From Acidobacteriaceae bacterium (GTDB taxonomy: Bacteria > Acidobacteriota > Terriglobia > Terriglobales > Acidobacteriaceae), in the NCBI GenBank assembly GCA_028283625.1, contig JAPWKG010000003.1:19147-83146 (forward strand): a DNA stretch of 64,000 nucleotides, written 5' to 3'. Made by a program: the position numbers and the translations under genes. The notes under the pieces were generated by a model, which did no database searches, was not told the origin of the DNA, and worked only from the letters and a program-made list of their open reading frames with translations. This document shows, piece after piece, positions 45,932-60,162 of the stretch; the stretch's first letter is position 1, and every line of letters begins with the position of its first letter.

Positions 45932-48900
45932 CTAAGGAACACGAACCGGCCGGAATCCTTCAATCGGGAAGAGTCCCGTAGGATACGTGGCCGTTTGCAC
46001 CTGAGGGCGGAAGGTATAGCGTGCAAACGCGCCGCCCGAAACATAGTTGTAGTTGTTGGTATTGTTGCCGGTCAGGAAGCCACCCACGTACCAGTGCTCA
46101 TTCACCTGATACGCAACCTGGGAATCGATCGAATAATTCAATCCCGTATTGGAGTTCAGGTTCAAACCGCAGAACGGATTGCAGGCAGCGGCCGGAACAG
46201 TAGCCTGAGCGGGAGCATCGGATGCCAGCGGGAAGTAGTACTGCGTATCTTCCTGGAAGGTCTGGATGCCGATTGCTCCATTGATCGTGTAGTGCAGATG
46301 CTCCTTCCAGTGCCCTGTCCACGAGATCGGCAGACTGGCGAGGAAGTACACGTTCGGGCTGAAGTAACCACCCAAACCATACGTGTAGCCACGCTCGTTG
46401 TACTGGTAGTGCGATCCATAGAGCGTACCGCCAATATTCAGCGAACCGTAGTCTTCCCAGGTTGCAACGCGGAAGTAAGCGCCCATGGTTCCGGAGAACT
46501 CGTGATTTTCCAGCACGTGGTATCCGGTCAGGTCGGCTCCATCGGCCTGCAGATAGAGCCCGGACTTTTCATCCCCGGCATCGAAGCGAACGCCACCGCC
46601 GGTGGAAACCACACCACCCCAGATATTACCGTTCGACGACGGATTCGGGTCCCGCATACCGGCATAGGAAAGCATCGTCTGCTTCACCGCATCACGGCCG
46701 CCAAAGAGCGTGAAGTGTGAGTTCCCGGGACGCCACTTCGCACGTCCAATCAGGTTCGAGACCGGAAAGCCATACGGCGTATAGCCAATCGCGCCTGCAA
46801 ACGTGTTGGTCGTCAACTGCAACTCGCCACCGACACCGGAAGCAAACTGCTGGAAGTTGCCTGAGGTCTGGCTGTCATACAGCGTGCCCAGAATCGGCTC
46901 ACCGACGTAGGTCGTCGGGAAGGTGAACTTCCCTGCATCCAGAAAGACCGCTTCCGGCACAAGCGAGAGGCGCGCCGTCTTTCCGAGTGCGAACGAAACC
47001 TCAAACGGTACCGTCAGTGAGGCCAGGCGGTCGATTCCCGGCTGCCCGCTGCGGTAGGCCGCAATTACGCTGCCACCCAGCCAGTTTGAGAAACCCGACT
47101 CGATCAAAGCGAGATCGAGTTGCGTCTGCTGGCGCTCCGTCAACGGAGCTTTCGGATTCATCGACGTACGTGGATCAAAATAACCACGCAGCGGCGGCAG
47201 ATTGCGATCACGAAGGTCCGTGTCCGTCGGTGCAGGCGGCAAAGCGTAGGTCTGCGGAAGCTCGGGCGTCCCCTCATTCTGCATCGGCTGAGGATAGACC
47301 GGATAGTTCATCGGCCCCTGGCTTACCGGAGGAGGAGAGTAGCTGCGCGTGGAACGATGTGTCGTCGTTCTGCGCGGTGCCCGTTCTGTCGAATGTGTCC
47401 GCGGCTGCGGATACTGCTGTCCCGGCGTGCCCTGCTGCTGTTGCTGCATGGTCACAGTTTGACCGGTCGTATCCTGCGCATAGCCTGAAGTCGGCGCCAT
47501 GGGGGCCAGTATGCTCATGCTGGAGGAAGGCACCGCCTCCGAGCGCTGGACCTGCGTGCCTTGTGCCGGAGCCGTGGTGTACTGCGTCGTCGACAGCGCG
47601 GCATTGGAGCTGTCATTATCCGTTGCATAACTCTCTACCGGAGGATGACTCGTTCCCTCCAGCACCGCCGGCGCATGCTGCTGGTTGGCGCGGATTGCCT
47701 CTGCCCGCTCCCGCGCAGTCAAGCGATGAGACTGCACCGGAGGAGCATAGGTAATCGTGCGATCCGCAGAGTGCGGCACAGGCGTCAGCCTGGATTCGCC
47801 CGGCACAAAGATCGGAGGAGGAACATAGTGCGGCTGTTCTGTGGAGGCCGTGCTACGGACGGTCGTTGTCTCCGCAGCCTCTCTGGTTGCACGTAGATGA
47901 ATCGGCCGTGGTGTGCTGCTGGCAGGCGAGCTTGCGCTCGTTGGCGTTGAAGCCTGTGAGCTCACACCGAAGTTGGCGAACGCATTCCCTGAGGACGCCC
48001 CCGCAGCACTGTGCGGCTTCGCTGCCACGTGCGAACCAGTGGTGCTCTTACGCTTTTTTCTGGAAACAGGATAAGGGCTGTTCGAAACCGGATACGAAGC
48101 CTCCTGCCCGGAAGCGCTCATAAAGGCAGCGGTCTCCATGCGGTCAGAGCCCTGATGGCTCACCCCGAGATAGGAGAGCACGGGGAGCGCATCGGGCTCA
48201 GCAAGCGACGTCTTCGCGCGCCCCGTCACACGTCCCAAAAGCGCATCGGCAGAACCATCTCCCGGCATCGTCTCTCCGGGTACAAAGGAGCGGTACGGAC
48301 CGTACTTGGCTTCCATCGCCGGGGACGGCTTCAGGCGCAAAACCGCCTGTTGCGATGGCTTCCGTTGCGTACGTCCGGGAAGCTCAGGCTGGGTGACCGA
48401 CGACTGCGGAGGAAGATAATCCCCCAGCGTTGTCTTCTTGGTCGAGGGGCGAACACTCGGAGCCGCATCGTCCACAGAGCTACCGTTCAGACCATCGCTT
48501 GTTGCTCCCTCCAGCGACTGCACGGCTGATCCCGTTCCCCGCGGTACGGAGTTTGACAGCGCAGAAGAGCGACGGCTAAGAACCACAGGAGCCTGCGCAG
48601 CGCTTCCAAAACTCGGGAGATAGGGCTCGGTGTACGCAGGCTGGGAGACCGTATCCGCGTCCTGTGCCCCCGTAGAGTTCGTGCGCACGGGAGCATCCGG
48701 TTGGGAAAGCAGCGTAGGAAGATCGTCCTGCCTCTCCACACTCGGCAAACGCGCCGGTGCGGGTGCGTGTTCGAGAGCTTCTGCCAGCTCCGCCCCCGGA
48801 TCAGGCTGCGGCATCGACGACAACGAGGCGCGGTAATAATCTGCCGCACGCCCCGGATTGCCGCGAGCGGTTTCAAATCTTGCTGCCAGCCCTAAAAGCT

Positions 48901-51523
48901 GAGAATCGCGAGGGTACTGGTCCAGGCCAAAACGCAGCCAAACCTCGGCATCCTTCAAGTCATTGGCCACAAGCGCGGCCCCAACCGCTGCACGATAATC
49001 AGCAGCGGTGCCCTTAGAAAGGTCCTGCGAACGGAAGATCTGAATCGCTTCCTTCGGCATACCACTGGCGGCATAGCCACTGCCCAGCGCACGCAGCACA
49101 CCCGGGTTGTTCGGGAACGCGCGAGCAGCCGCATTCAGAATAGCGATGGCACGGCGGGGGTTATGCGCAGCCAGCGCCTGTTGCGACCGGCGCACGGCCC
49201 AGCTTGCCCAGATCACCTGAACCTGCCGGCGCTGCTCCTCCGTAAGATCCTTACGACTGCCGATCGTCATCAGCTGCTTGTACAACGCCGGATCGTTCCC
49301 GGCATTGAACAGCAACCAGGCCGCCTGAATATCCATCGCAGCCGGAGCCTGCACCCCTTCAACGCGATAGTGCGACTGCGCACGATTTAAAAAGCGCATC
49401 GCGTCCTGCGGATGTCCCAGAGCGGCGTAGATATTGCCAACCGTCTGCAGGTAATCCGGATCAGCCTCCAACTGGCGCCTCATGGCAGGAGGAACCTGCT
49501 GGATCTCCGCCAGAGCTTCCTGATCGTGCCCGGTCGCGTGCAGAGAGTTCAGCAAGCCCTTCCAGGCGTCCGGGCGATCTGGGTTATTGGTCAAAATCGC
49601 TTCAAACAGCGGAAACGCCTGCGCCGTGTTGTTGTGCTTCAGGTAGAGATTGGCCAGCGTGACCTGCGCGGCGACGAACGGCTTCTGGCCGTTCTGCTTC
49701 TGCGCGGACAAAAACTCCTCCAGCACCGTCTGCGCCAGATCATCGTGATTCTGGCTGATGTAGACCGCCGCAACCGACGTTGCAAAGCCGGGCTGCTGCA
49801 TCGCCGCCTGGTAGCTGTCGGGCGGCATCTGCTGCAGCAACGCATAGGCTTCTGTATCGTTACCGGTGGCGTGCTCGGTCTGCACCAACCCCACCCATGC
49901 GTTCGTGTTCTGTGCGTCTGCCGACAACACTTCACGATAGAGCCCTTCAGCCTGCTGATGCCGTCCTGCAGCCTCCAACAACGCCGCATACTGCATCTGC
50001 GTATCCGCGTGCAGGCTGCTGGCATCGGACGGGAACGGCAACGAGAGAGCCAGCTGCAGAACGCGCTGTGCCTCCGCATCATGATTCGTTGCCGAGTAAA
50101 CCGAGGCCAGAGTGCGCAGATAATCCGGATCACGCATCAACTGGGCACGGACCGAACCCGGCATACGGCGTTCTACACCTAACGCCTGATCAAAACGATT
50201 CGCAGAAGCGTATCCGGAAAAAAGCCCCTTCCAGCCGCTTACATCCGCATTATGACGACGCACAAAGTCTTCATACAGCGCAATGGCTGCCTCGGGCTTT
50301 TCCGACTGCAGGTACGCGCCGCCCAGCGCCTGCATCGCACCTGCATCGCCAGGACGCATCGCCAGAGCCGACTGATACTGCGCAATCGCAGTGTTGATAT
50401 CGCCCTCGGCCATCGCACCGGAGCCTTCGCGCATCGTGTAGTAAAAACGAGAATCTGATAGCGCCTTCTGCACGCCGGCGCTATGATCGCCGTTTTGCGC
50501 CGCCTCGCTCAGGTAGCTCACCGCGCCCGCGAAGTTCGACTGATTCATCCGCACATACCCCAGGCCTGCCAACGCCTTGGGATCGTTTGGATTGCGTGCC
50601 AGCATGGCCTGGAATCTCTGCTCTGCTTCGGAGTACCGCTTGGCATTCAGTGCCGCATAGGCCTGCTGCACCTCACGGCCATCGGCGGCACGCTGCTCCA
50701 TTTCCGCCTTCTGCTCCGGGGTCAGCTTGCGAACCGACGCGCTCGTGCGCTCGTCCTGCGCCAACGCACTGGCTAACTGAGCGTCCGGGTGCTTCGCGAT
50801 AAACCGTCGGATCTCCTCAGCCGTTGCCGGGTTGGACTGATCCCACGTCAAGGCCTGACGCAAAGCATCGGAAGCATCCGGATCGTTCGGATACTTTGAC
50901 AGCAGCTTTCTGCCTTCTGCGCGCGTACGAGGGTTATACGTAAGAATCTTACCCAGCGCGATCGTGTAACGCGGGTCGTCCGGGTACTTATCCATCAGAG
51001 CACGCAGGCCGGCTACAGCCTGCGGACGCGTATCGTCCGTTGCAGCCTCGGTCTGGTAATAGCTCAGCGCGGCCTCGCCCGGAGGAGGATTGTTGCCATA
51101 CACCTGGCGCATTAAAGCCATCGCGCGAGCATATTGCCCCTGCTGCGAAAGCTGCCCTGCCTGCCGCAGCAGCACGTTCGTGTCCTGCGCAGTTCCCATA
51201 TTCTCCACTTTGGAGATGTTCGGGTCCGAAGGATTTACGGCACGCAAACGGGCCAGATACCCATTCGCTTCGTCGATTTTTCCTTCCTGCTTGCTCGCAC
51301 GGGCCATTCCGGCCAGCGCTTCGGCATTATTCGGATCACTGAGCAAAACCTGCTGCCAGGCCTGCTTAGCCAGATCCATACGGCCTCGCGCCTCCAGAGC
51401 GTGCGCCTTCCCGAGAGCCTGAGCGGTAATCGAATCCTGAGCCAATGCAGTGCACGGCGTCACCGCCAGCGCGCACAGCAGAAGGCTCAATATCCGATAT
51501 TGCTTCCGCGAAACTTTGCTCAT
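45932..51523 (-). CDS. bcsC: Cellulose synthase outer-membrane subunit BcsC (TPR + long linker + beta-barrel)
   Basis: Signal peptide, many TPRs, and a C-terminal barrel domain (GGGVRFDAGDEKSGLYLQADGADLTGYHVLENHEFSGTMGAYFRV, HWYVGGFLTGNNTNNYNYVSGGAFARYTF). Start placed at MSKVSRKQ. Confidence 0.93.
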   Translation of the reverse strand: MSKVSRKQYRILSLLLCALAVTPCTALAQDSITAQALGKAHALEARGRMDLAKQAWQQVLLSDPNNAEALAGMARASKQEGKIDEANGYLARLRAVNPSDPNISKVENMGTAQDTNVLLRQAGQLSQQGQYARAMALMRQVYGNNPPPGEAALSYYQTEAATDDTRPQAVAGLRALMDKYPDDPRYTIALGKILTYNPRTRAEGRKLLSKYPNDPDASDALRQALTWDQSNPATAEEIRRFIAKHPDAQLASALAQDERTSASVRKLTPEQKAEMEQRAADGREVQQAYAALNAKRYSEAEQRFQAMLARNPNDPKALAGLGYVRMNQSNFAGAVSYLSEAAQNGDHSAGVQKALSDSRFYYTMREGSGAMAEGDINTAIAQYQSALAMRPGDAGAMQALGGAYLQSEKPEAAIALYEDFVRRHNADVSGWKGLFSGYASANRFDQALGVERRMPGSVRAQLMRDPDYLRTLASVYSATNHDAEAQRVLQLALSLPFPSDASSLHADTQMQYAALLEAAGRHQQAEGLYREVLSADAQNTNAWVGLVQTEHATGNDTEAYALLQQMPPDSYQAAMQQPGFATSVAAVYISQNHDDLAQTVLEEFLSAQKQNGQKPFVAAQVTLANLYLKHNNTAQAFPLFEAILTNNPDRPDAWKGLLNSLHATGHDQEALAEIQQVPPAMRRQLEADPDYLQTVGNIYAALGHPQDAMRFLNRAQSHYRVEGVQAPAAMDIQAAWLLFNAGNDPALYKQLMTIGSRKDLTEEQRRQVQVIWASWAVRRSQQALAAHNPRRAIAILNAAARAFPNNPGVLRALGSGYAASGMPKEAIQIFRSQDLSKGTAADYRAAVGAALVANDLKDAEVWLRFGLDQYPRDSQLLGLAARFETARGNPGRAADYYRASLSSMPQPDPGAELAEALEHAPAPARLPSVERQDDLPTLLSQPDAPVRTNSTGAQDADTVSQPAYTEPYLPSFGSAAQAPVVLSRRSSALSNSVPRGTGSAVQSLEGATSDGLNGSSVDDAAPSVRPSTKKTTLGDYLPPQSSVTQPELPGRTQRKPSQQAVLRLKPSPAMEAKYGPYRSFVPGETMPGDGSADALLGRVTGRAKTSLAEPDALPVLSYLGVSHQGSDRMETAAFMSASGQEASYPVSNSPYPVSRKKRKSTTGSHVAAKPHSAAGASSGNAFANFGVSSQASTPTSASSPASSTPRPIHLRATREAAETTTVRSTASTEQPHYVPPPIFVPGESRLTPVPHSADRTITYAPPVQSHRLTARERAEAIRANQQHAPAVLEGTSHPPVESYATDNDSSNAALSTTQYTTAPAQGTQVQRSEAVPSSSMSILAPMAPTSGYAQDTTGQTVTMQQQQQGTPGQQYPQPRTHSTERAPRRTTTHRSTRSYSPPPVSQGPMNYPVYPQPMQNEGTPELPQTYALPPAPTDTDLRDRNLPPLRGYFDPRTSMNPKAPLTERQQTQLDLALIESGFSNWLGGSVIAAYRSGQPGIDRLASLTVPFEVSFALGKTARLSLVPEAVFLDAGKFTFPTTYVGEPILGTLYDSQTSGNFQQFASGVGGELQLTTNTFAGAIGYTPYGFPVSNLIGRAKWRPGNSHFTLFGGRDAVKQTMLSYAGMRDPNPSSNGNIWGGVVSTGGGVRFDAGDEKSGLYLQADGADLTGYHVLENHEFSGTMGAYFRVATWEDYGSLNIGGTLYGSHYQYNERGYTYGLGGYFSPNVYFLASLPISWTGHWKEHLHYTINGAIGIQTFQEDTQYYFPLASDAPAQATVPAAACNPFCGLNLNSNTGLNYSIDSQVAYQVNEHWYVGGFLTGNNTNNYNYVSGGAFARYTFRPQVQTATYPTGLFPIEGFRPVRVP

Positions 51524-51726
51524 TGCCTCTCTGGAATCCTTATTTCTGCCCCATTCCTGATGCATAAACGGCCGGAGCGTACCGTCTCCCTGCCAATGGT
51601 TGCAGGCAGATTACCCTGTTTTGCCCAATTCTGTGTGCTTTTTTTCCCGCCCGGAGCCTTGCAAGATATATCCGTGCCCACCTTGAACACGGCGTATTCT
51701 CCAACCGCAACGAACTGTAGCTTGCG

Positions 51727-52911
51727 TTATTTCCACCTCACCTTGAGACGCCCATCTCGCTCAAAGCTGTAGAGGCCGCTCATAAAACCATCTTCGAACA
51801 ACGCCAGGTTCTGGTCGTAATACATCCCTTGCTGGCCATAAAGCCCCCGTTGTGGGTCAAGCGTCGCCTCAAGCCGTGCGGCCTGAGACTTTTCTTCCTC
51901 TTTCCGGTTCAGAGCGTGAAGATAGGGTATCACTGCAGCGGAAAAGCCCGGAGGCGCTGCGTCCTGAATCACCTGTCCTTCGGGGCCGACCTGTTGCGGC
52001 GGCGTGATGTGGCCGCTCGCCAGATAGGTTGCCATCCCAGGAATGCTCTTCCGAATCTCTGCGATGTGCGGAGTCTGCGAGTTGCTGAGGCCCGCCCAGA
52101 GGTAAACACGAATCGCGTCGTAGCTCCCTACCGGCACAGGCGGCTGCTGGCCCTGCGCCAAAGCGGCGACCACGCCCGGAGGCGCGGAGGGCTCGAGGCC
52201 GTGATCGCTGGAAACCTGCATCCAGTCCATCGCGAACCCTCCCGAGGTGTGCAGCACCGAAGGCAGCGAGGCCAGCACCTGAGCCCAGGGAGCACTCGGA
52301 TCCTGACGAGCAAAATACTGCAGCTGAAACGGAGCCATATAGCTCGGGTTCACAAACCAGACCGACGGTGAAGGATGAAAGCCCTGGCGTCCAGGCAGCA
52401 GAGTCGTGCCGAGATTCGGAATCAGCGTCAGCTCTTCACGCGCGATGCGATTGGCTATCGTAATCCCCAGCTTCGAGTAGCGGTCCACTCCCCAAAGCCG
52501 TCCTGCCTCGCAAAGCGAGTACGCCATCCACAGATCAGCATCCGAAGCCGAGTTCTCATCGAGAACCCTCCAGGAGCCATCCGGCGCCTTCCCCCAGCTC
52601 CATGCCGGAAGATGCTGTGTCAGGTCTCCCTGCGCCAGATTGTTTTCCGTCCACGACAGCAGCTTGTCGAAGCGTATCCGGTCGTTCGCCACCAAGGCAA
52701 AGAACATGGCGTACGACTCACTCTCGCTCGTCGAACGGTCTCCCGCATTATGGTCAACGACGCGCCCCTGCGCATCAACAAAGTGCGTCGAGTACTGATT
52801 CCAAAGCGGCCAGTTCTGCGCGTGGCATCCCGTCGCCGAGATCAGCCCCAGGGAGATTAGAGCGCAGGAAAACTTCCGAAGAAATCGCTTCCCACCAGCA
52901 ATGCGTCCCAT
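51727..52911 (-). CDS. bcsZ: Glycoside hydrolase family 8 endoglucanase BcsZ
   Basis: STSESESYAMFFALVANDRIRFDKLLSWTENNLAQGDL, NSASDADLWMAYSLCEAGRLW; in the bcs cluster. Confidence 0.93.
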   Translation of the reverse strand: MGRIAGGKRFLRKFSCALISLGLISATGCHAQNWPLWNQYSTHFVDAQGRVVDHNAGDRSTSESESYAMFFALVANDRIRFDKLLSWTENNLAQGDLTQHLPAWSWGKAPDGSWRVLDENSASDADLWMAYSLCEAGRLWGVDRYSKLGITIANRIAREELTLIPNLGTTLLPGRQGFHPSPSVWFVNPSYMAPFQLQYFARQDPSAPWAQVLASLPSVLHTSGGFAMDWMQVSSDHGLEPSAPPGVVAALAQGQQPPVPVGSYDAIRVYLWAGLSNSQTPHIAEIRKSIPGMATYLASGHITPPQQVGPEGQVIQDAAPPGFSAAVIPYLHALNRKEEEKSQAARLEATLDPQRGLYGQQGMYYDQNLALFEDGFMSGLYSFERDGRLKVRWK

Positions 52912-53010
52912 ACCACTCCCCAATATGACCTTCTTAGGTCTGCAAATACACCCAGAACATTCAGCGAGCCCGTCCACCTCTTTAGGGCTCGCCCCCTCTC
53001 AAGCCTACCT

Positions 53011-56000
53011 TTACGCCGTCGGCTGAAGCCGTCGCCGTGCGTGGCGACGCAGCATCGCGCGCAGCAGAGCCGCCATCAGGAAGCAGAAGACCACCGCGCC
53101 AAGCACGATCATCCACGAGAACTCCGAGAACAGCAGCGACAGCTGCACCAAGGGGTTCAGATACCCCACGTGGTACACCTGGTTGCCAATGCGGTAGCTC
53201 TCAAAGTGACTTCCCTGCAGAACGCTTACAGACTGCGAGATATCAGACGACTGACTTGACCGGAGAAATTCGTCGATAAAACTGCGCGCCGTGCTCTTGT
53301 CACGCAGTGCAATCAGCACCACCGAGTTCGAAGAGCCGTGTGGCCACTCGATTCCCTCAACGAGCGCATCCGGCAGAACACCCTGCGTCAGCAATTTGCC
53401 GGATTCAATATGATCGGAGCCCTTGACCTTCCACCATGCATGCTCCAGCGGATCGAAGTATCCCTTCGTATCCTGCACGCTCAGGCTGTTGCTCTCGATG
53501 CGTACGGGAAGCATGTCATTCACCTTGGAGATTGCAGGCTGATCGTCCATCGTGCCCAGCACCAGGTAATCCTTCCCTGAGCCCTTCTTCATCCCATCGG
53601 CATCGGTCACGGTCAGGTAAATGACCGGATAGCCGGTTTGAGCACCGAAGTGCCCCATCAGGCTTAGGAAGAGTTCGATCTCCTCCACCGAAGGATTGGC
53701 AGGCAGCACCACCGCCGAGTCGGAAAGATCGGCGCGTCGCGTAAAGGGATAACCGGCATTTGAAAACAGCTCCAGATCCGGCAGCTTCGCCCAGTGAGGA
53801 ATATCCCGCAGATCCAGATAAGAGTCCTTCAGGATCGCGCCCTGCAGGTTCATCGGTGCCGTATCCTGGCATTTACCCTTGACCGCCAGCTGGAAGATAA
53901 ACTTACCCATCATCGAGTTCGAGAAGGGTCTCATCGTCACAACTGGAACCGGCACAACCGTCTGCAAAATCTTCGACGCGCTATTGGTATGCGGAAGCGG
54001 CGTGGAACTAACGTACGCTCCGTTCATGTACATCTGCAGCGAACTCTCGTCCGCCAACGGAATGCCGTTATACCGGTAGTTCATAACGAAGGCGAGATTC
54101 GACTTACCCCCGTAGTAAAGATCCGGCGGCAAGCGCATAAAGATGTTGACCGGCATGCTGCCTTCGCCCTGCAGGTCGTTACCTTCGGTAAAGTCAGCCA
54201 GAGGCGTAATGTGCTCGGTACGCAACCAGCGCGGCGCGGCGTCCGGCTCCATTTTCTTTGGAGCCTCGGTGAGTGAAACGTGCTGCATGTCACCGGCTAA
54301 AAGCCCCGGAGGCGTAAGCGTAAGCACACGCGCCGCAGTCACCAGATCATCCCCGTTGTCTCCGGTCAGAACCAGCACCTTGGAGTAGGGGTCTCCCGGA
54401 TTCGTACGCATCGCCAGCGTGGGCCCCGAGCTGCCGACGACACTCAGCCCCGCGGGTAACTGGCTCGGATTATCGCTAATGACAATGGCATTGCCCTGCG
54501 GAATTGCGCCCATGCTGATCGGGAAATGAACCGGGCGGTAATCCGTCAACTTACCGAACCACGAAGCAACAATGCCTGCAGCTTCCAGCGCATGCTGGGA
54601 TGGCTGCGAAAGGAAAACAACCGGAATGCTGGGATGCAGGTTAACCGAAGAGTCGTAGAACGGCATGGGAAGAATCTTCAGGTCGTTCTGCAGAGGAAGC
54701 AGATTTCCCGCCAGCTCCAGCGAGGTCGTCGTATCGACATGCGCCCAAAGCGTGGTGTGCGAAGGATCCTCGCACTGCATCGTGTAATGCCCAATGAACT
54801 CAAACGTCAGCTCGTTGTTGTGCACCAGCATTTCTGCCGGCAGCGTAAGCTGCGCTGTCAGCTGCGTGTTGGTTTCCACGCGCACCGAGTTCAGCTTTTG
54901 AGCAGACGAAAGATCGTTCTGCTCATTGCCTGTCACCAACGGAGCCGTGGTAACAGGAATCGAAGCGAACTGCGTCCCGTTCAGACTCACCTTCAGGTGC
55001 GAGATACTTGGCAGCAATCCGGGGGAGAAGTGATACCGGATCGTCATCGTCGCCGTCTTCACCACCTGCGTTTGCGGAAGCGAAAAGTACACCGAGTGAT
55101 ACGCATCCACCCCACGCAACACGATCGCATCCGGCACACCGATATCGGCAAGCGTGAAGACGTTATCGAACTGGCCCGGAGGCAGCACACGCGCTCCCGC
55201 ACCCGCTACCACCGTAGCCGAAGCTCCAGCCGTGCTGCCGAGCATATTCGGTCCGGCCACACCAGTGCCGGTTGCCTGCGAAACAATCTGCTCTGCGGCC
55301 TGGCGCGGAAGAGCGTTTGCACGATGCCATCCCGGCAACAGTGCCAGAGCCATCAAAACCATGGGCGCGACGCTGGTTGCCAGCTTGCCCTTGGGGGATT
55401 TCTTCTTGCTTCCGAACAAGCCGCCTCCGGTACGCTTAAGCCCTTCAATCGAGAGCAGGATAATGCGCCAAAGGCTCGTAAGCGGGCGATCGACTTCGCG
55501 GGTTTCTCCCCAGCCAAGCCACGTATCGGCACGCGAGTACAACACCATCGTGAGCGCTTCTTCTTCTTGAATTGTTAGTGGATCAAACTGGGCGCGCAGC
55601 ACGCGGCCCTCATCAACGCCGATCACCGTAGCCGGCAACACTGCGTCTCCGTCCAGCACCGGGAAAACCATACGCACCGGATCACCGGAGTTGAGCTGAA
55701 TCGGTTCATCGCAACGCAACATGCAGCCGCCGCTGGAAAGATCCGCCGTCACACCCTGCACCGCTGTTCCATCCGGCAGCACCACGCCGGCGGGAACCGC
55801 CATCACAACGCGAACGGTCGTGCGGCGCTGCTGGCTTTCCCAGGCCACCGCAGTAGCAACCCCAAGCACCAGCACGTTGAAGATTGTCCAGATGACGTTC
55901 ATCACGATCGTGCCGGGGTGCGTGCCGTCATACATATTCGACAGGACGTTCAGCAGATCGCCCAGAGGCCAGGGCATCCCTGTTCCCCATGCAGGAAACT

Positions 56001-57609
56001 TCAGATATCGCGGAATTGCGCAAAGGATGCCGATGAAGTTCAACAACAGCATGACGAGAAACGGCTGCGCGATACGCGAATCAAAGAAGCTGCGATTCAC
56101 CACACCCCCCTTGGCCGTTACGTTGAAGCTGCCGAGCTTCGGATTCACAAGCGCCAGCATTGTGGGCAAAAAGATGTAGGGCGCAAGAACAGTCTCGTAA
56201 ATTTCATTCCAGAACGAGTGACGGTGTTGTCCTTGAATGCGCGAGTTTGTCATGTTCGACAAAACAAGATGCGGGAACGCATAGGCAAAGATCGCAGCCC
56301 AGTAACCCGGCACGTTCGTATGCCCAAGGATCAGATAGATCAACGGCGCGGTAAGGAAGATCAGGCGCGGCAGCGCATAGAGAAAGTGCGTCATCGCGTT
56401 GAAGTAGCAGAGACGCTGTGCCGCAGAAAGTCCGGAAGCAAACAAAGGGTTATCGGTACGCAGAATCTGGATCATGCCGCGCGCCCAGCGAATACGCTGC
56501 TTTACATGTCCGCTCAGACGTTCCGTTGCCAGACCTGCTGCCTGCGGAATATTGATGTACGCCGTATTCCAGCCCAGCATCTGCATACGCAGCGAAGTGT
56601 GGGCATCTTCGGTCACCGTCTCGACGGCGATACCCCCCACCTGATCAATCGCATCGCGGCGCATCACCGCGCACGAGCCGCAGAAGAAGGTCGCATTCCA
56701 GAAATCGTTACCGTCCTGCACCACGCCGTAAAAGAGCTCACCCTCGTTCGGGATCGTACGAAACTGGCCGAGATTACGCTCAAAGGGATCTGGCGAATAA
56801 AAGTGGTGAGGCGTTTGCAGCATGCCCAGCTTCTTATCGCGATCGAACCAACCCATGGTCATCTGCAGGAAGGAGCGTGTCGGCACGTGGTCGCAATCGA
56901 AGATGGCAACGTAAGGCGCATCCACGCGTTTGAGCGCGCGATTAATGTTGCCCGCCTTTGCGTGCTTGTTATCGTCACGCGTCATGTAGCCGATGCCCGC
57001 CTCTTCGCAAAACGAGCGGAACTCCTCACGCTTGCCGTCGTCGAGGATATAGACGTTCAGCTTGTCCGCAGGCCAGTCAATGTTCAGCGAGGCCAGAGCG
57101 GTATAGCGCACCACGCTCAGCGGCTCGTTGTAGGTCGGAATCAACAGGTCGACCGAAGGCCACTCATCCGGATCATCCGGCAGCGGTACAGGCGTGCGGC
57201 GCAAAGGCCAGATTGTCTGCAGAAAGCCGAGCACCAGAATCGCGAACGCATACGCTTCCGCTCCGACCAGCAGCAGGATAAAAAACGCATCCAGCGCCGT
57301 CCACTGCGCTCCCGGATCGCGGAAGAACTTCACCACGGTGGCGATACGCCAGAAACCATAGCGGTATGTCGAAAAGCAGCTCAGCAGCATCAGCGTGAGC
57401 GTAATCAGGTAAGAGTTCGAGCTACGATCGACCCAAATCGCCACCAGAATCAACAACAGTCCCAACACCGCCTGTTGGGGCCAGGTAAGCGCCAGCGATC
57501 CGGAAAACAGCAGGAACGTGATTCCACCGCCGATAATGACAAACCGAAGTAGCTTGAGAAGAAACCCACCGCCGGATTCAAACTCCCGCCATAAGGGTGA
57601 CCTGGTCAT
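53011..57609 (-). CDS. bcsAB: Cellulose synthase catalytic subunit BcsA fused to BcsB (AcsAB-type fusion)
   Basis: BcsA: ILDDGKREEF, IFDCDHVPTRSF, QTPHHFYSPDPFERNL, TVTEDAHTS, QRIRWARGM; PilZ RRTTVR...DLSSGG. BcsB: PLQNDLKILPMPFYD..., LRTEHITPLADF, and a C-terminal TM. Confidence 0.96.
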   Translation of the reverse strand: MTRSPLWREFESGGGFLLKLLRFVIIGGGITFLLFSGSLALTWPQQAVLGLLLILVAIWVDRSSNSYLITLTLMLLSCFSTYRYGFWRIATVVKFFRDPGAQWTALDAFFILLLVGAEAYAFAILVLGFLQTIWPLRRTPVPLPDDPDEWPSVDLLIPTYNEPLSVVRYTALASLNIDWPADKLNVYILDDGKREEFRSFCEEAGIGYMTRDDNKHAKAGNINRALKRVDAPYVAIFDCDHVPTRSFLQMTMGWFDRDKKLGMLQTPHHFYSPDPFERNLGQFRTIPNEGELFYGVVQDGNDFWNATFFCGSCAVMRRDAIDQVGGIAVETVTEDAHTSLRMQMLGWNTAYINIPQAAGLATERLSGHVKQRIRWARGMIQILRTDNPLFASGLSAAQRLCYFNAMTHFLYALPRLIFLTAPLIYLILGHTNVPGYWAAIFAYAFPHLVLSNMTNSRIQGQHRHSFWNEIYETVLAPYIFLPTMLALVNPKLGSFNVTAKGGVVNRSFFDSRIAQPFLVMLLLNFIGILCAIPRYLKFPAWGTGMPWPLGDLLNVLSNMYDGTHPGTIVMNVIWTIFNVLVLGVATAVAWESQQRRTTVRVVMAVPAGVVLPDGTAVQGVTADLSSGGCMLRCDEPIQLNSGDPVRMVFPVLDGDAVLPATVIGVDEGRVLRAQFDPLTIQEEEALTMVLYSRADTWLGWGETREVDRPLTSLWRIILLSIEGLKRTGGGLFGSKKKSPKGKLATSVAPMVLMALALLPGWHRANALPRQAAEQIVSQATGTGVAGPNMLGSTAGASATVVAGAGARVLPPGQFDNVFTLADIGVPDAIVLRGVDAYHSVYFSLPQTQVVKTATMTIRYHFSPGLLPSISHLKVSLNGTQFASIPVTTAPLVTGNEQNDLSSAQKLNSVRVETNTQLTAQLTLPAEMLVHNNELTFEFIGHYTMQCEDPSHTTLWAHVDTTTSLELAGNLLPLQNDLKILPMPFYDSSVNLHPSIPVVFLSQPSQHALEAAGIVASWFGKLTDYRPVHFPISMGAIPQGNAIVISDNPSQLPAGLSVVGSSGPTLAMRTNPGDPYSKVLVLTGDNGDDLVTAARVLTLTPPGLLAGDMQHVSLTEAPKKMEPDAAPRWLRTEHITPLADFTEGNDLQGEGSMPVNIFMRLPPDLYYGGKSNLAFVMNYRYNGIPLADESSLQMYMNGAYVSSTPLPHTNSASKILQTVVPVPVVTMRPFSNSMMGKFIFQLAVKGKCQDTAPMNLQGAILKDSYLDLRDIPHWAKLPDLELFSNAGYPFTRRADLSDSAVVLPANPSVEEIELFLSLMGHFGAQTGYPVIYLTVTDADGMKKGSGKDYLVLGTMDDQPAISKVNDMLPVRIESNSLSVQDTKGYFDPLEHAWWKVKGSDHIESGKLLTQGVLPDALVEGIEWPHGSSNSVVLIALRDKSTARSFIDEFLRSSQSSDISQSVSVLQGSHFESYRIGNQVYHVGYLNPLVQLSLLFSEFSWMIVLGAVVFCFLMAALLRAMLRRHARRRLQPTA

Positions 57610-59903
57610 CGTTCACTCCAACGTGCGGTATGTTGTGCGGCCGTAGCCGGTGCCACTCTTGCCTTGAGCCACTGGGCCAGGTGACGGAAGTCTTCCGCAA
57701 CTGCAGACTCCGGAGCGTAATCCATCACGGTCATGCCTTCAGCCAGCGACTCCGGTACCGCTGACGCACGACGTACACAAAACGGCAGAAGGCGATCGCC
57801 CAACTGCTGACGCAAGACCTCGCGCACATCCAGGTGCAATGGCAACGTCGCATCAAATTGGTTGAGCAGATAGCAAGGCTCAACCTGCTTGCCGGCAGCA
57901 TCGCGCATCTCGGCGAAGAACTTTTCAATCGCTCCGAGTGAGATCACCGAATTCATGTCGGGAGCAAGCGGGACCAGGATCGTCGCGTTCATCTTCACCA
58001 AACGGCGGGCCACCCACGGCGTCGTCGAGGAAAGATCGACCAGAACACGGGCCATCCCTTCCGAGCGTGCCGTCAGCTCCTGCGCAAGCCAGTCCTGCGA
58101 TGCGAGATCGCCGGAGCGCTGCAACACGTCATAGCTCACCAGGCAAATCGTCGCGTCCGCAGAGCCTGCAGGAGGAGAAAACGCTCGTACCACGCCCGGA
58201 CGAAGGCCGCTTGCGCCGAAATAAAACGGCAGCAGCCCATGGGAGGTCGTATCCGTGAGCAGAACCTTCTCTCCTGTTGAGGAAAGCGCACGGCCCAGCG
58301 TTGCGACCAGACTCGTCTTGCCGACTCCGCCCGCCAGCGAAAACACACCCAAAATGGGCGCCTGGCGCGGTGCTGCTTGCGGAGCTTCCCTCTCAACAGG
58401 AGGTTCCTGCGCTGCGTGGTCGAAGAGTCCCTTGAGCGCATACCAGCGTGCCGCTACCCGTTCGCGGGAGTGTTGCAACGTATCGGCTGTCGGCATGCTT
58501 CCGCTCGCAGTCACAACGCTGCCGCTTGCCGAAGGGACACGACGCGAAACAGGCGCAGGCTCCAGAGCGCTTGAGCTTTCTCCGATCCATGCGGGCACAA
58601 CCGGCTTTTCAGCAGCCGGCGCCGGTCCTTTTGCTTTTGCACTCCCCGCGGCGGGGAAAAAGCCGCTGGACTCATCGGGCTGGTACCCCCGATAAGGCCG
58701 TCTGACCGGTTCAGCCACGCGGGGCCTCTCTTCGACAAACGGCTCTGCGACCGGAAGACCAAAGCCGGAAGAAACCTCTTGTCTCTCCCGCGATGCGGCA
58801 CGCAGGGCCGCGGAATCCGCTCGCCAGGCTTCGGAAGCTGCACGAATCTCCGCTGCGGACGGACGCGCCTCCATCCCGGAAGGGCGGGCTACGGGCAGCG
58901 CAGCGGAGGACGGCGTTCTGGCAACCGGCGGAAACGACTCCGGCCTGCTCGTAGGAACCAGCGGCGAGGAGCCTTGTGCCGTTACGGCGCGATGCGAACG
59001 CGAACTCTGCTGGGAGGGCTTTACCGCAGGAGGCGGCGTGTACCGCTCAATCACACCGCTGTGCCGCTGGGCAGCTGCCTCCAGAGCAGCCGCGCCGTGT
59101 GCCGCAATCCGCGCGTCCTCTTCGAGACTGCCGATCCCCAGATACTCCCGGTCGACGTCGCCCGGATTCAGAGGATCGACCGGCGTAATAATGACGCGCT
59201 CGCGGCTGCGGGACTGCCGCCCTTCCCCATCCGGGACCGACGGCTGATGGTAAATACGTCCTGGACGAACGTTGTGCTTGGAGCTGTTGGAGTAGGGATC
59301 AGAGATCTCTCCACCAATAATGGCCTTCATCGACGCCGAAGACAGCCCAGGAGACGAGGCCGAACGCAGCTTTACCCCGGACTCCTGATACCGTGCAGCC
59401 TGGCGAGCGGCAGACGCACGAGCCTCCTCCATCTCCATGGATTCGCGGCGGGCCGAAGCCTCGGCAATGGCGACGGCCTCGGCACGACGTACAGCTTCAA
59501 TACGTTCCGCGGCCGCGATGCGGCTCATTTCATTGGCATGGCGGACCGCTCGCTGGCGAGCCTCCTCATCAATCGCCGTGCTCTGCTGCTGGCGCGCAAC
59601 CGTGGCGCGACGGGCAGCGCTTTCATGGAAGCGAGCCGCTTCCTCCGCTTCGCGGGCGGCGCGCTCTGCCTCTGAGGCCGCGCGCTCTGCTTCTTCCTGC
59701 GCCTGCGCCTCAGCTAGCCGCTGATCCTCTGCCGCACGAAGGCGCATCTGCGCTCTGTACTCCCGGCGCGACGCGGAAAAGTCTCGGTATTTCGCGCCCT
59801 GCAGATTTGCCCACGAATAGAGAACCGCTACATCTTCAGGCGGATCTCCACCAAGAGCTTCATTTGCGAATTCAGGTGAGTCTTTATCCATCGTCTTTTT
59901 CAA
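57606..59903 (-). CDS. BcsQ-like ParA/MinD ATPase with long N-terminal coiled-coil/disordered extension
   Basis: C-terminal P-loop GVFSLAGGVGKTSLVATLGRALSSTGEKVLLTDT. The N-terminal half is A/E/R-rich coiled coil then Pro/Ser-rich. ATGA overlap with bcsAB. Confidence 0.88.
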   Translation of the reverse strand: MKKTMDKDSPEFANEALGGDPPEDVAVLYSWANLQGAKYRDFSASRREYRAQMRLRAAEDQRLAEAQAQEEAERAASEAERAAREAEEAARFHESAARRATVARQQQSTAIDEEARQRAVRHANEMSRIAAAERIEAVRRAEAVAIAEASARRESMEMEEARASAARQAARYQESGVKLRSASSPGLSSASMKAIIGGEISDPYSNSSKHNVRPGRIYHQPSVPDGEGRQSRSRERVIITPVDPLNPGDVDREYLGIGSLEEDARIAAHGAAALEAAAQRHSGVIERYTPPPAVKPSQQSSRSHRAVTAQGSSPLVPTSRPESFPPVARTPSSAALPVARPSGMEARPSAAEIRAASEAWRADSAALRAASRERQEVSSGFGLPVAEPFVEERPRVAEPVRRPYRGYQPDESSGFFPAAGSAKAKGPAPAAEKPVVPAWIGESSSALEPAPVSRRVPSASGSVVTASGSMPTADTLQHSRERVAARWYALKGLFDHAAQEPPVEREAPQAAPRQAPILGVFSLAGGVGKTSLVATLGRALSSTGEKVLLTDTTSHGLLPFYFGASGLRPGVVRAFSPPAGSADATICLVSYDVLQRSGDLASQDWLAQELTARSEGMARVLVDLSSTTPWVARRLVKMNATILVPLAPDMNSVISLGAIEKFFAEMRDAAGKQVEPCYLLNQFDATLPLHLDVREVLRQQLGDRLLPFCVRRASAVPESLAEGMTVMDYAPESAVAEDFRHLAQWLKARVAPATAAQHTARWSER

Positions 59904-60086
59904 ATACTCAAAAATCGTAAGGGCAACTCACGGAGGAGTTAACGCAAAAGTATAGAAGCCTGTTACCGAAGGCTAGTTCCCCACACCGGAGGGAGTCAAT
60001 GGTACAGACGCGCCAGTGACTCTTCGATCAATGCCCCTCCGGTACCCGTTTTTGCGCACCAAAAGCTGCTATCTTTATCTCAGGTC

Positions 60087-60162
60087 GAGCGGGTAGCTCA
60101 GTTGGTAGAGCATCGCCCTTTTAAGGCGCTGGTCCTGGGTTCGAGCCCCAGCCCGCTCACCA
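60087..60162 (+). tRNA. tRNA-Lys (anticodon TTT), CCA encoded
   Basis: Acceptor GAGCGGG/CCCGCTC, D-arm GCTCAGTTGGTAGAGC, anticodon loop CTTTTAA, T-arm CTGGGTTCGAGCCCCAG, ACCA end. Confidence 0.95.

Follow-up and report, generated by a model that had tools for sequence, protein, structure and literature searches.

The first gene of a cellulose synthase (bcs) operon in an Acidobacteriaceae bacterium encodes a BcsQ-type ATPase that is joined, through a long helix and a disordered leash, to an N-terminal motif related to the synthase plug of BcsR and BcsP. The gene lies in a 64,000-nucleotide stretch of DNA, referred to here as the window (Table 1). Judging from sequence comparisons, its product is probably a covalent, tethered BcsP/BcsR-BcsQ activator of cellulose synthase.

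Table 1. Features of the bcsQ gene and of its operon in the window (all on the minus strand; residues are those of the bcsQ product)
Feature	Position	Strand	Residues	Basis or remark
bcsQ, plug-leash-BcsQ fusion	57606..59891	-	761 aa	alternative start TTG 59903
BcsR/BcsP-like plug motif, EDVAVLYSWANLQGAKYRDFSASRR	59763..59837	-	19-43	profile match to BcsR+BcsP
A/E/R-rich long helix, salt-bridged single-helix-like	59370..59744	-	50-174	AF2; charge-pair and periodicity tests
P/S/R/A-rich disordered leash	58485..59369	-	175-469	pLDDT, identity
Conserved helix block, DTLQHSRERVAARWYALKGLFD	58419..58484	-	470-491	conservation; AF2 helix
BcsQ SIMIBI ATPase domain	57609..58358	-	512-761	TIGR03371, PF06564, PDB, Foldseek
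P-loop AGGVGKTS	58311..58334	-	520-527	deviant Walker A, signature Lys to Ala
bcsAB, fused cellulose synthase with PilZ domain	53011..57609	-		presumed plug target
bcsZ, GH8 endoglucanase	51727..52977	-
bcsC, outer-membrane export protein	45932..51565	-

Gene and operon

An earlier note, made from the letters of the window, had placed a fused BcsR-BcsQ gene at 57606-59903. This interval is a real open reading frame on the minus strand, with stops throughout on the plus strand, and the motif, the A/E/R stretch, the P/S stretch and the ATPase quoted in that note are all present in it. The longest start is the TTG at 59903. The ATG at 59891 is favoured because of the alignment with the closest homologue (L006), which begins MEKEPS... 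where the window protein begins MDKDSP...

The operon order is bcsQ-bcsAB-bcsZ-bcsC, with bcsQ first and all genes on the same strand. bcsQ is located immediately upstream of bcsAB, the stop of the one and the start of the other overlapping as ATGA (57609-57606). Strong matches to TIGR03371 (E below 1e-29) were confined to the Acidobacteriaceae among the 396 genomes of Acidobacteriota searched. In the 3.0-Mb genome to which the window belongs (85% complete), no match over the cut-off was found for PF10945 (bcsR), and none for bcsD (PF03500), the gene that a BcsP-BcsD cytoskeleton would require.

It is hardly conceivable that the N-terminal part is an annotation artefact, with the true BcsQ start near residue 500 and an untranslated frame upstream. 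Neither the TTG nor the ATG start has a clear ribosome-binding site, and the linker is mostly poorly conserved, but across dozens of species the frame is uninterrupted for 340-911 codons and carries the motif N-terminally, and two blocks are conserved at the protein level.

Three further observations concern the surroundings of the gene. Two terminator-like hairpins lie in the bcsQ leader (59916-59974, minus strand; two found, 0.6 expected) and are possibly an attenuator; a putative terminator has been described for E. coli bcsR (PMC7439463). A tRNA-Lys gene (anticodon TTT, 60087-60162) is located upstream of the operon but on the plus strand, opposite to the bcs genes. BcsC, at 1877 aa, is unusually long; its TPR repeats and its C-terminal BCSC_C domain are separated by some 500 P/S/Q-rich residues.

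A probable N-terminal plug

In E. coli, residues 21-36 of BcsR form a hairpin that plugs a pocket of BcsA via L25-F29-L31-I34, with I22 and Y36 forming a pair and D21 positioned between R367 and R792 of BcsA, and the N-terminus of BcsP is the same as that of BcsR (PMC11470070). The window protein carries the pattern D-V-x-x-L…Y-x-D-F-S, and a gap-free alignment sets D21, I22, L25, L31, Y36, D38 and S40 of E. coli BcsR against its D20, V21, L24, L30, Y35, D37 and S39. Across the Acidobacteriaceae set, the BcsR contact and hairpin residues D21, I22, L25 and Y36 are invariant or V/I. Mean identity to 30 homologues reaches 70% over the motif, compared with 29% over the helix that follows, 19% over the linker and 56% over the ATPase. 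This identity, together with four motif columns that are invariant in 23 divergent members, argues that the motif is not due to chance.

The relationship to BcsR and BcsP becomes visible when families rather than single sequences are compared. A profile of 22 BcsQ-borne N-termini matched a profile of 63 distinct BcsR and BcsP sequences (gathered by family-level searches; a class-wide BcsR search yielded little) in register, column 1 to column 1, with an hhalign E of 4.7e-5 and a probability of 68%. None of 600 column shuffles reached this score, and the reversed profile failed as well; with an earlier, less diverse set, one of 300 shuffles did. Divergent orthologues provide the link at the level of curated families. 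With its N-terminus, one of them (G063), which adjoins bcsAB and has an ATPase 36% identical to that of the window protein, matches a single Pfam family, PF10945 (E 4.5e-4), and a single NCBIfam family, NF040718 (BcsP; E 3.3e-4), both below the curated cut-off. The pattern D-h-x-x-L...Y-x-x-h of BcsR/BcsP is thus found at the profile level, through divergent orthologues.

Other results count against a covalent activator. The window N-terminus alone had no PF10945 or BcsR match in single-sequence HMM searches of Pfam and NCBIfam, the family profile had no BcsR match in the PDB, and the curated BcsR/BcsP cut-offs (PF10945, NF040717, NF040718) were not reached. Over 7280 ORFs, three HMMs built from BcsR/BcsP put the divergent orthologue on top in two cases (E 1.4 and 0.15) and low in the third, none of them significantly. 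The plug-tip positions F29 and I34 of E. coli BcsR are Ala in the window (A28, A33). The RWPLL C-terminal helices, which in BcsR/BcsP follow about 10-15 residues past the plug, are absent at that spacing. AF2 models the motif as a continuation of the long helix and not as a hairpin, with a confidence too low (pLDDT about 60-65) to be informative.

Taken together, the intermediates support the homology of the plug well, the window sequence on its own supports it weakly, and the window N-terminus is very probably a BcsR/BcsP synthase plug. Since the RWPLL half is not demonstrable, it is nearer to the plug of BcsP/BcsR than to a whole BcsR. The earlier note had proposed a BcsR-like N-terminus and a BcsR-BcsQ fusion, and both proposals stand, with a BcsR/BcsP-related N-terminus and a BcsQ ATPase in a single ORF. 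The profile similarity on which they depend was recovered with the family profile and with divergent relatives, while the window sequence by itself remains below PF10945.

A motif of about 20 columns is short, and convergence could have made it plug-like, so that it binds another protein of the operon or a localisation factor; the direct HMM searches with the window sequence, which gave nothing specific, would agree with this. We nevertheless consider convergence very unlikely, in view of the in-register match that no shuffle equalled, of PF10945 as the sole family matched by two divergent relatives, and of the natural transfer of the plug to BcsAB and its near-complete association with adjacent bcsAB, both described below.

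The window BcsAB keeps both arginines of the R-D-R triad (R367, R792), which are absent or partly absent in Azospirillum and in one E. coli plasmid BcsA. The triad was considered as evidence of co-evolution within the family and set aside as not discriminating. Because BcsAB paralogues without BcsQ also keep both arginines, and because five plug-bearing loci have Gly or Ser in place of R792, the arginines are consistent with a plug but do not argue for it.

Plug-like sequences were also seen in other proteins. The N-terminus of BcsO (YDDLQRF...KYEFKDLS), encoded before BcsQ at L039:4967-5506 and L040:7326-7913, is in register with the BcsR/BcsP plug profile, with two of 200 shuffles scoring equally high, and BcsO may be a third plug carrier. 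In Burkholderiaceae (L217, L219, L220, L223 and L226, also L222 and L227-L229), stand-alone BcsR-family proteins (NDIDAL...HYFDQQ...RWPLL) are encoded outside any obvious bcsQ-bcsA cluster. The neighbourhood of L219 contains PilZ and BcsG-family genes, followed by genes for CBS/SpoIIE and GGDEF proteins, which suggests a distinct BcsG locus that encodes a plug protein of its own.

Long helix, leash and conserved block

The AF2 input was a 31-row alignment with homologous rows for the ATPase only. The model shows one helix over residues 19-170 (pLDDT 82-96 from residue 41) and disorder over most of residues 174-467, with two predicted helices (256-276 and 346-376) within the leash. A Pro/Ser-rich disordered region had been described in the earlier note, and pLDDT is indeed below 50 over most of residues 175-469. 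The coiled coil and the built-in scaffold described there fared less well: the long helix is predicted, but the heptad signal (period 3.5) in the A/E/R stretch is not significant (p 0.16). Pairing of opposite charges at i,i+3/i+4 is strong (p < 0.0005), and the stretch looks like a salt-bridged single helix. Among relatives, the Pro/Gly-free helix ranges from about 8 to about 157 residues, and the spacing between the motif and the P-loop from 75 to 598 residues. Without significant heptad periodicity and with such variable helix length, a dedicated coiled-coil scaffold is therefore not conserved, and the variation in both helix length and spacing is easier to reconcile with a leash than with a scaffold of fixed dimensions. 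The polar positioning of synthases that the earlier note had considered found no support.

A second conserved element, here called the RW block (consensus RERVAxRWxALKGxF), is located just ahead of the ATPase. Its identity to 30 homologues is 60% in the mean and 73% in the median, and AF2 places it in a helix (469-494). Together with the ATPase it is kept in three plug-less orphan BcsQs (G019, G089, G098), and the L031-L034 clade is without it. One could imagine that a whole BcsR/BcsP was fused in split form, with the RW block as the other half, corresponding either to the RWPLL helices or to the C-terminal LxxVFxRL motif of BcsP; in the latter variant, LxxVFxRL would precede BcsQ directly once the stop codon was lost. 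Such a split would agree with a conserved, helical block that directly precedes the ATPase and is retained when the plug is lost, and with a match to the BcsP C-terminus that only six of 200 shuffles equal. This alignment, however, covers 8 columns only, the block is missing from an entire clade, and an assignment as the RWPLL half was rejected, with 59 of 200 and 28 of 200 shuffles scoring as high. We regard the split form as unlikely. The RW block is best called a conserved helix linked to the ATPase, which resembles RWPLL or LxxVFxRL of BcsP by eye.

The ATPase domain

The C-terminal domain belongs to the BcsQ-type SIMIBI ATPases; the earlier note had called it BcsQ-like. It matches PF06564 with 78.6 bits (cut-off 21.3) and TIGR03371 with E 4e-45 and 154.2 bits (cut-off 157.85; 158 in the genome search), and the BcsQ chains 6ybb, 6ybu and 6yar of the PDB with E of about 5e-8. 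The fold is predicted confidently by AF2, and Foldseek matched it to ParA/Soj and BcsQ structures (BcsQ E 1e-12). A BcsQ alignment searched against the genome contigs returned mostly ParA proteins.

All 41 Acidobacteriaceae BcsQ P-loops inspected have Ala or Ser at the position of the signature Lys, which is present in ParA/MinD and in betaproteobacterial BcsQ; E. coli BcsQ has Arg at this position and Thr for the P-loop Lys. In the window protein, Thr (T549) moreover takes the place of the second DxD Asp. With the signature Lys and this Asp lost, hydrolysis may be reduced and the ATP-bound dimer long-lived.

Plug retention and transfer among relatives

All 30 BcsQs that adjoin bcsAB have an intact plug (the count includes G020, where the contig breaks off within bcsAB), as does one of the seven that do not. 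It is missing from G019, G089, G098, G058, G033 and the second copy of G047. G137 keeps the plug with bcsAB not adjacent; a BcsA fragment is present on a different contig of this genome. The chance of such a split is 7/C(37,6), about 3e-6, a value that treats the genes as independent, which they are not. The plug has decayed in almost every relative in which BcsQ is no longer beside the cellulose genes. In the BcsQ-domain tree, the plug-less G098 groups with the plug-bearing G034 (99/97), apart from the G019/G089 pair (97/99), which points to at least two separate losses of the plug; the tree is poorly resolved, with seven rows missing and the G052 row wrongly extracted, and only this placement was used.

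No bcsABZC was found in the neighbourhood of the orphan BcsQs of G019 (L311), G089 (L312) and G098 (L313), although their ATPase and RW block are intact, and this points to an additional function of BcsQ there. Next to the plug-less BcsQ-like ATPase of the second G047 copy (L315) are ORFs which, judged by eye, look like a pilus-like chaperone-usher cluster, a hint that the ATPase has been reused outside cellulose synthesis.

In G079, the plug is found on the synthase itself. BcsAB of this genome starts MPSSTRNNSADVEALFAYMGAQEFQYHDFSSYRR, ahead of the first membrane helix, and matches PF10945 (E 0.0013) as well as the BcsR/BcsP profile and the BcsQ-borne profile (none of 300 shuffles) with this N-terminus. 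Upstream of bcsAB is galT (identified by eye), not bcsQ, and no BcsQ match was found in the genome, which is 76% complete. G079 thus has a natural plug-BcsAB fusion. It is the sole case among 145 BcsA-bearing genomes of 398, and its restriction to a single genome counts against the covalent activator.

Proposed mechanism

In the mechanism that we propose, the N-terminal 25 or so residues would be a BcsR/BcsP-type plug that, by analogy with E. coli, folds into a short hairpin and docks at the back of the GT/PilZ module of BcsA, holding the synthase active. The leash, consisting of a helical rod and a disordered chain, would tie the plug to the BcsQ ATPase, which by the same analogy is expected to dimerise and to sit on the PilZ domain. 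With the plug tied to a dimerising BcsQ, there would be two plugs per dimer at a fixed 1:1 stoichiometry. In E. coli, BcsA is contacted by a single BcsR N-terminus of the pair (PMC11470070); a second plug would accordingly be free and, on a long leash, could reach another synthase.

Alternatively, the two plugs of a BcsQ dimer could engage different synthases, each on a rod and leash with a possible reach of >20 nm. The protein would then be a multivalent scaffold that clusters synthases and replaces the absent BcsP-BcsD cytoskeleton. The long predicted helix, about 295 disordered residues and the genome without a BcsD match are in favour of such a scaffold. On the other hand, the deep clade L031-L034 has short leashes, the heptad periodicity is not significant, and we judge the scaffold decidedly improbable because neither leash length nor helix length is conserved among relatives. 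We give just as little weight to a BcsD-independent organisation in which the ATP-bound BcsQ dimer would be a divalent tethered activator, its plugs both switching on and cross-linking neighbouring BcsAB. If this were true, leash length, with a reach of tens of nanometres, would tune how far apart the synthases lie and, through this, the form that the cellulose takes.

Relation to known systems and meaning

A tethered activator of this kind shares several features with the E. coli Type II BcsR2Q2 activator (PMC11470070, PMC7439463): a BcsQ-family ATPase, a plug in register, a gene adjoining bcsA, and a P-loop signature Lys that is not conserved (Arg in E. coli, Ala in the window). It differs in being one polypeptide instead of two, in its leash of hundreds of residues, and in having no recognisable RWPLL BcsQ-binding half; its operon also lacks bcsEFG. 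In betaproteobacterial Type I/hybrid systems, BcsP (NF040718) likewise has an N-terminal plug and a long Pro/Ser-rich disordered tail, and is encoded just before BcsQ. It is, however, a separate protein reported to recruit BcsD, whereas in the window no stop codon separates the tail from BcsQ, and a BcsD match is lacking. The latter difference also applies to the BcsH/CcpAx-BcsD cortical belt of Gluconacetobacter, which includes a proline-rich cytosolic synthase organiser and is analogous in function only.

The order bcsQ-bcsAB-bcsZ-bcsC has already been published for bcs clusters of Acidobacteriales (PMC9693552, PMC3910553). The BcsQ/YhjQ of these papers is the gene studied here, and plug, leash and fusion are not described in the parts of the papers considered. 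In the open-access literature, no description of a BcsR/BcsP-BcsQ fusion was found. The principle of activation was already known. What appears to be new is the covalent arrangement and its distribution over the Acidobacteriaceae, together with the plug-BcsAB variant and the decay of the plug in orphans.

The existence of BcsR and BcsQ as separate polypeptides, not fused, has been proposed to allow asymmetric stoichiometry and extra regulation (PMC7439463). The Acidobacteriaceae offer a natural test of this proposal, with the plug on BcsQ, on the synthase (in one genome), or decayed in most orphans. These natural variants are ready-made constructs for asking if the plug is a minimal activator and if it works in cis. 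The picture of Acidobacteriaceae clusters as having BcsQ without BcsR/BcsP is corrected accordingly, and the activation mechanism would extend beyond the Proteobacteria.
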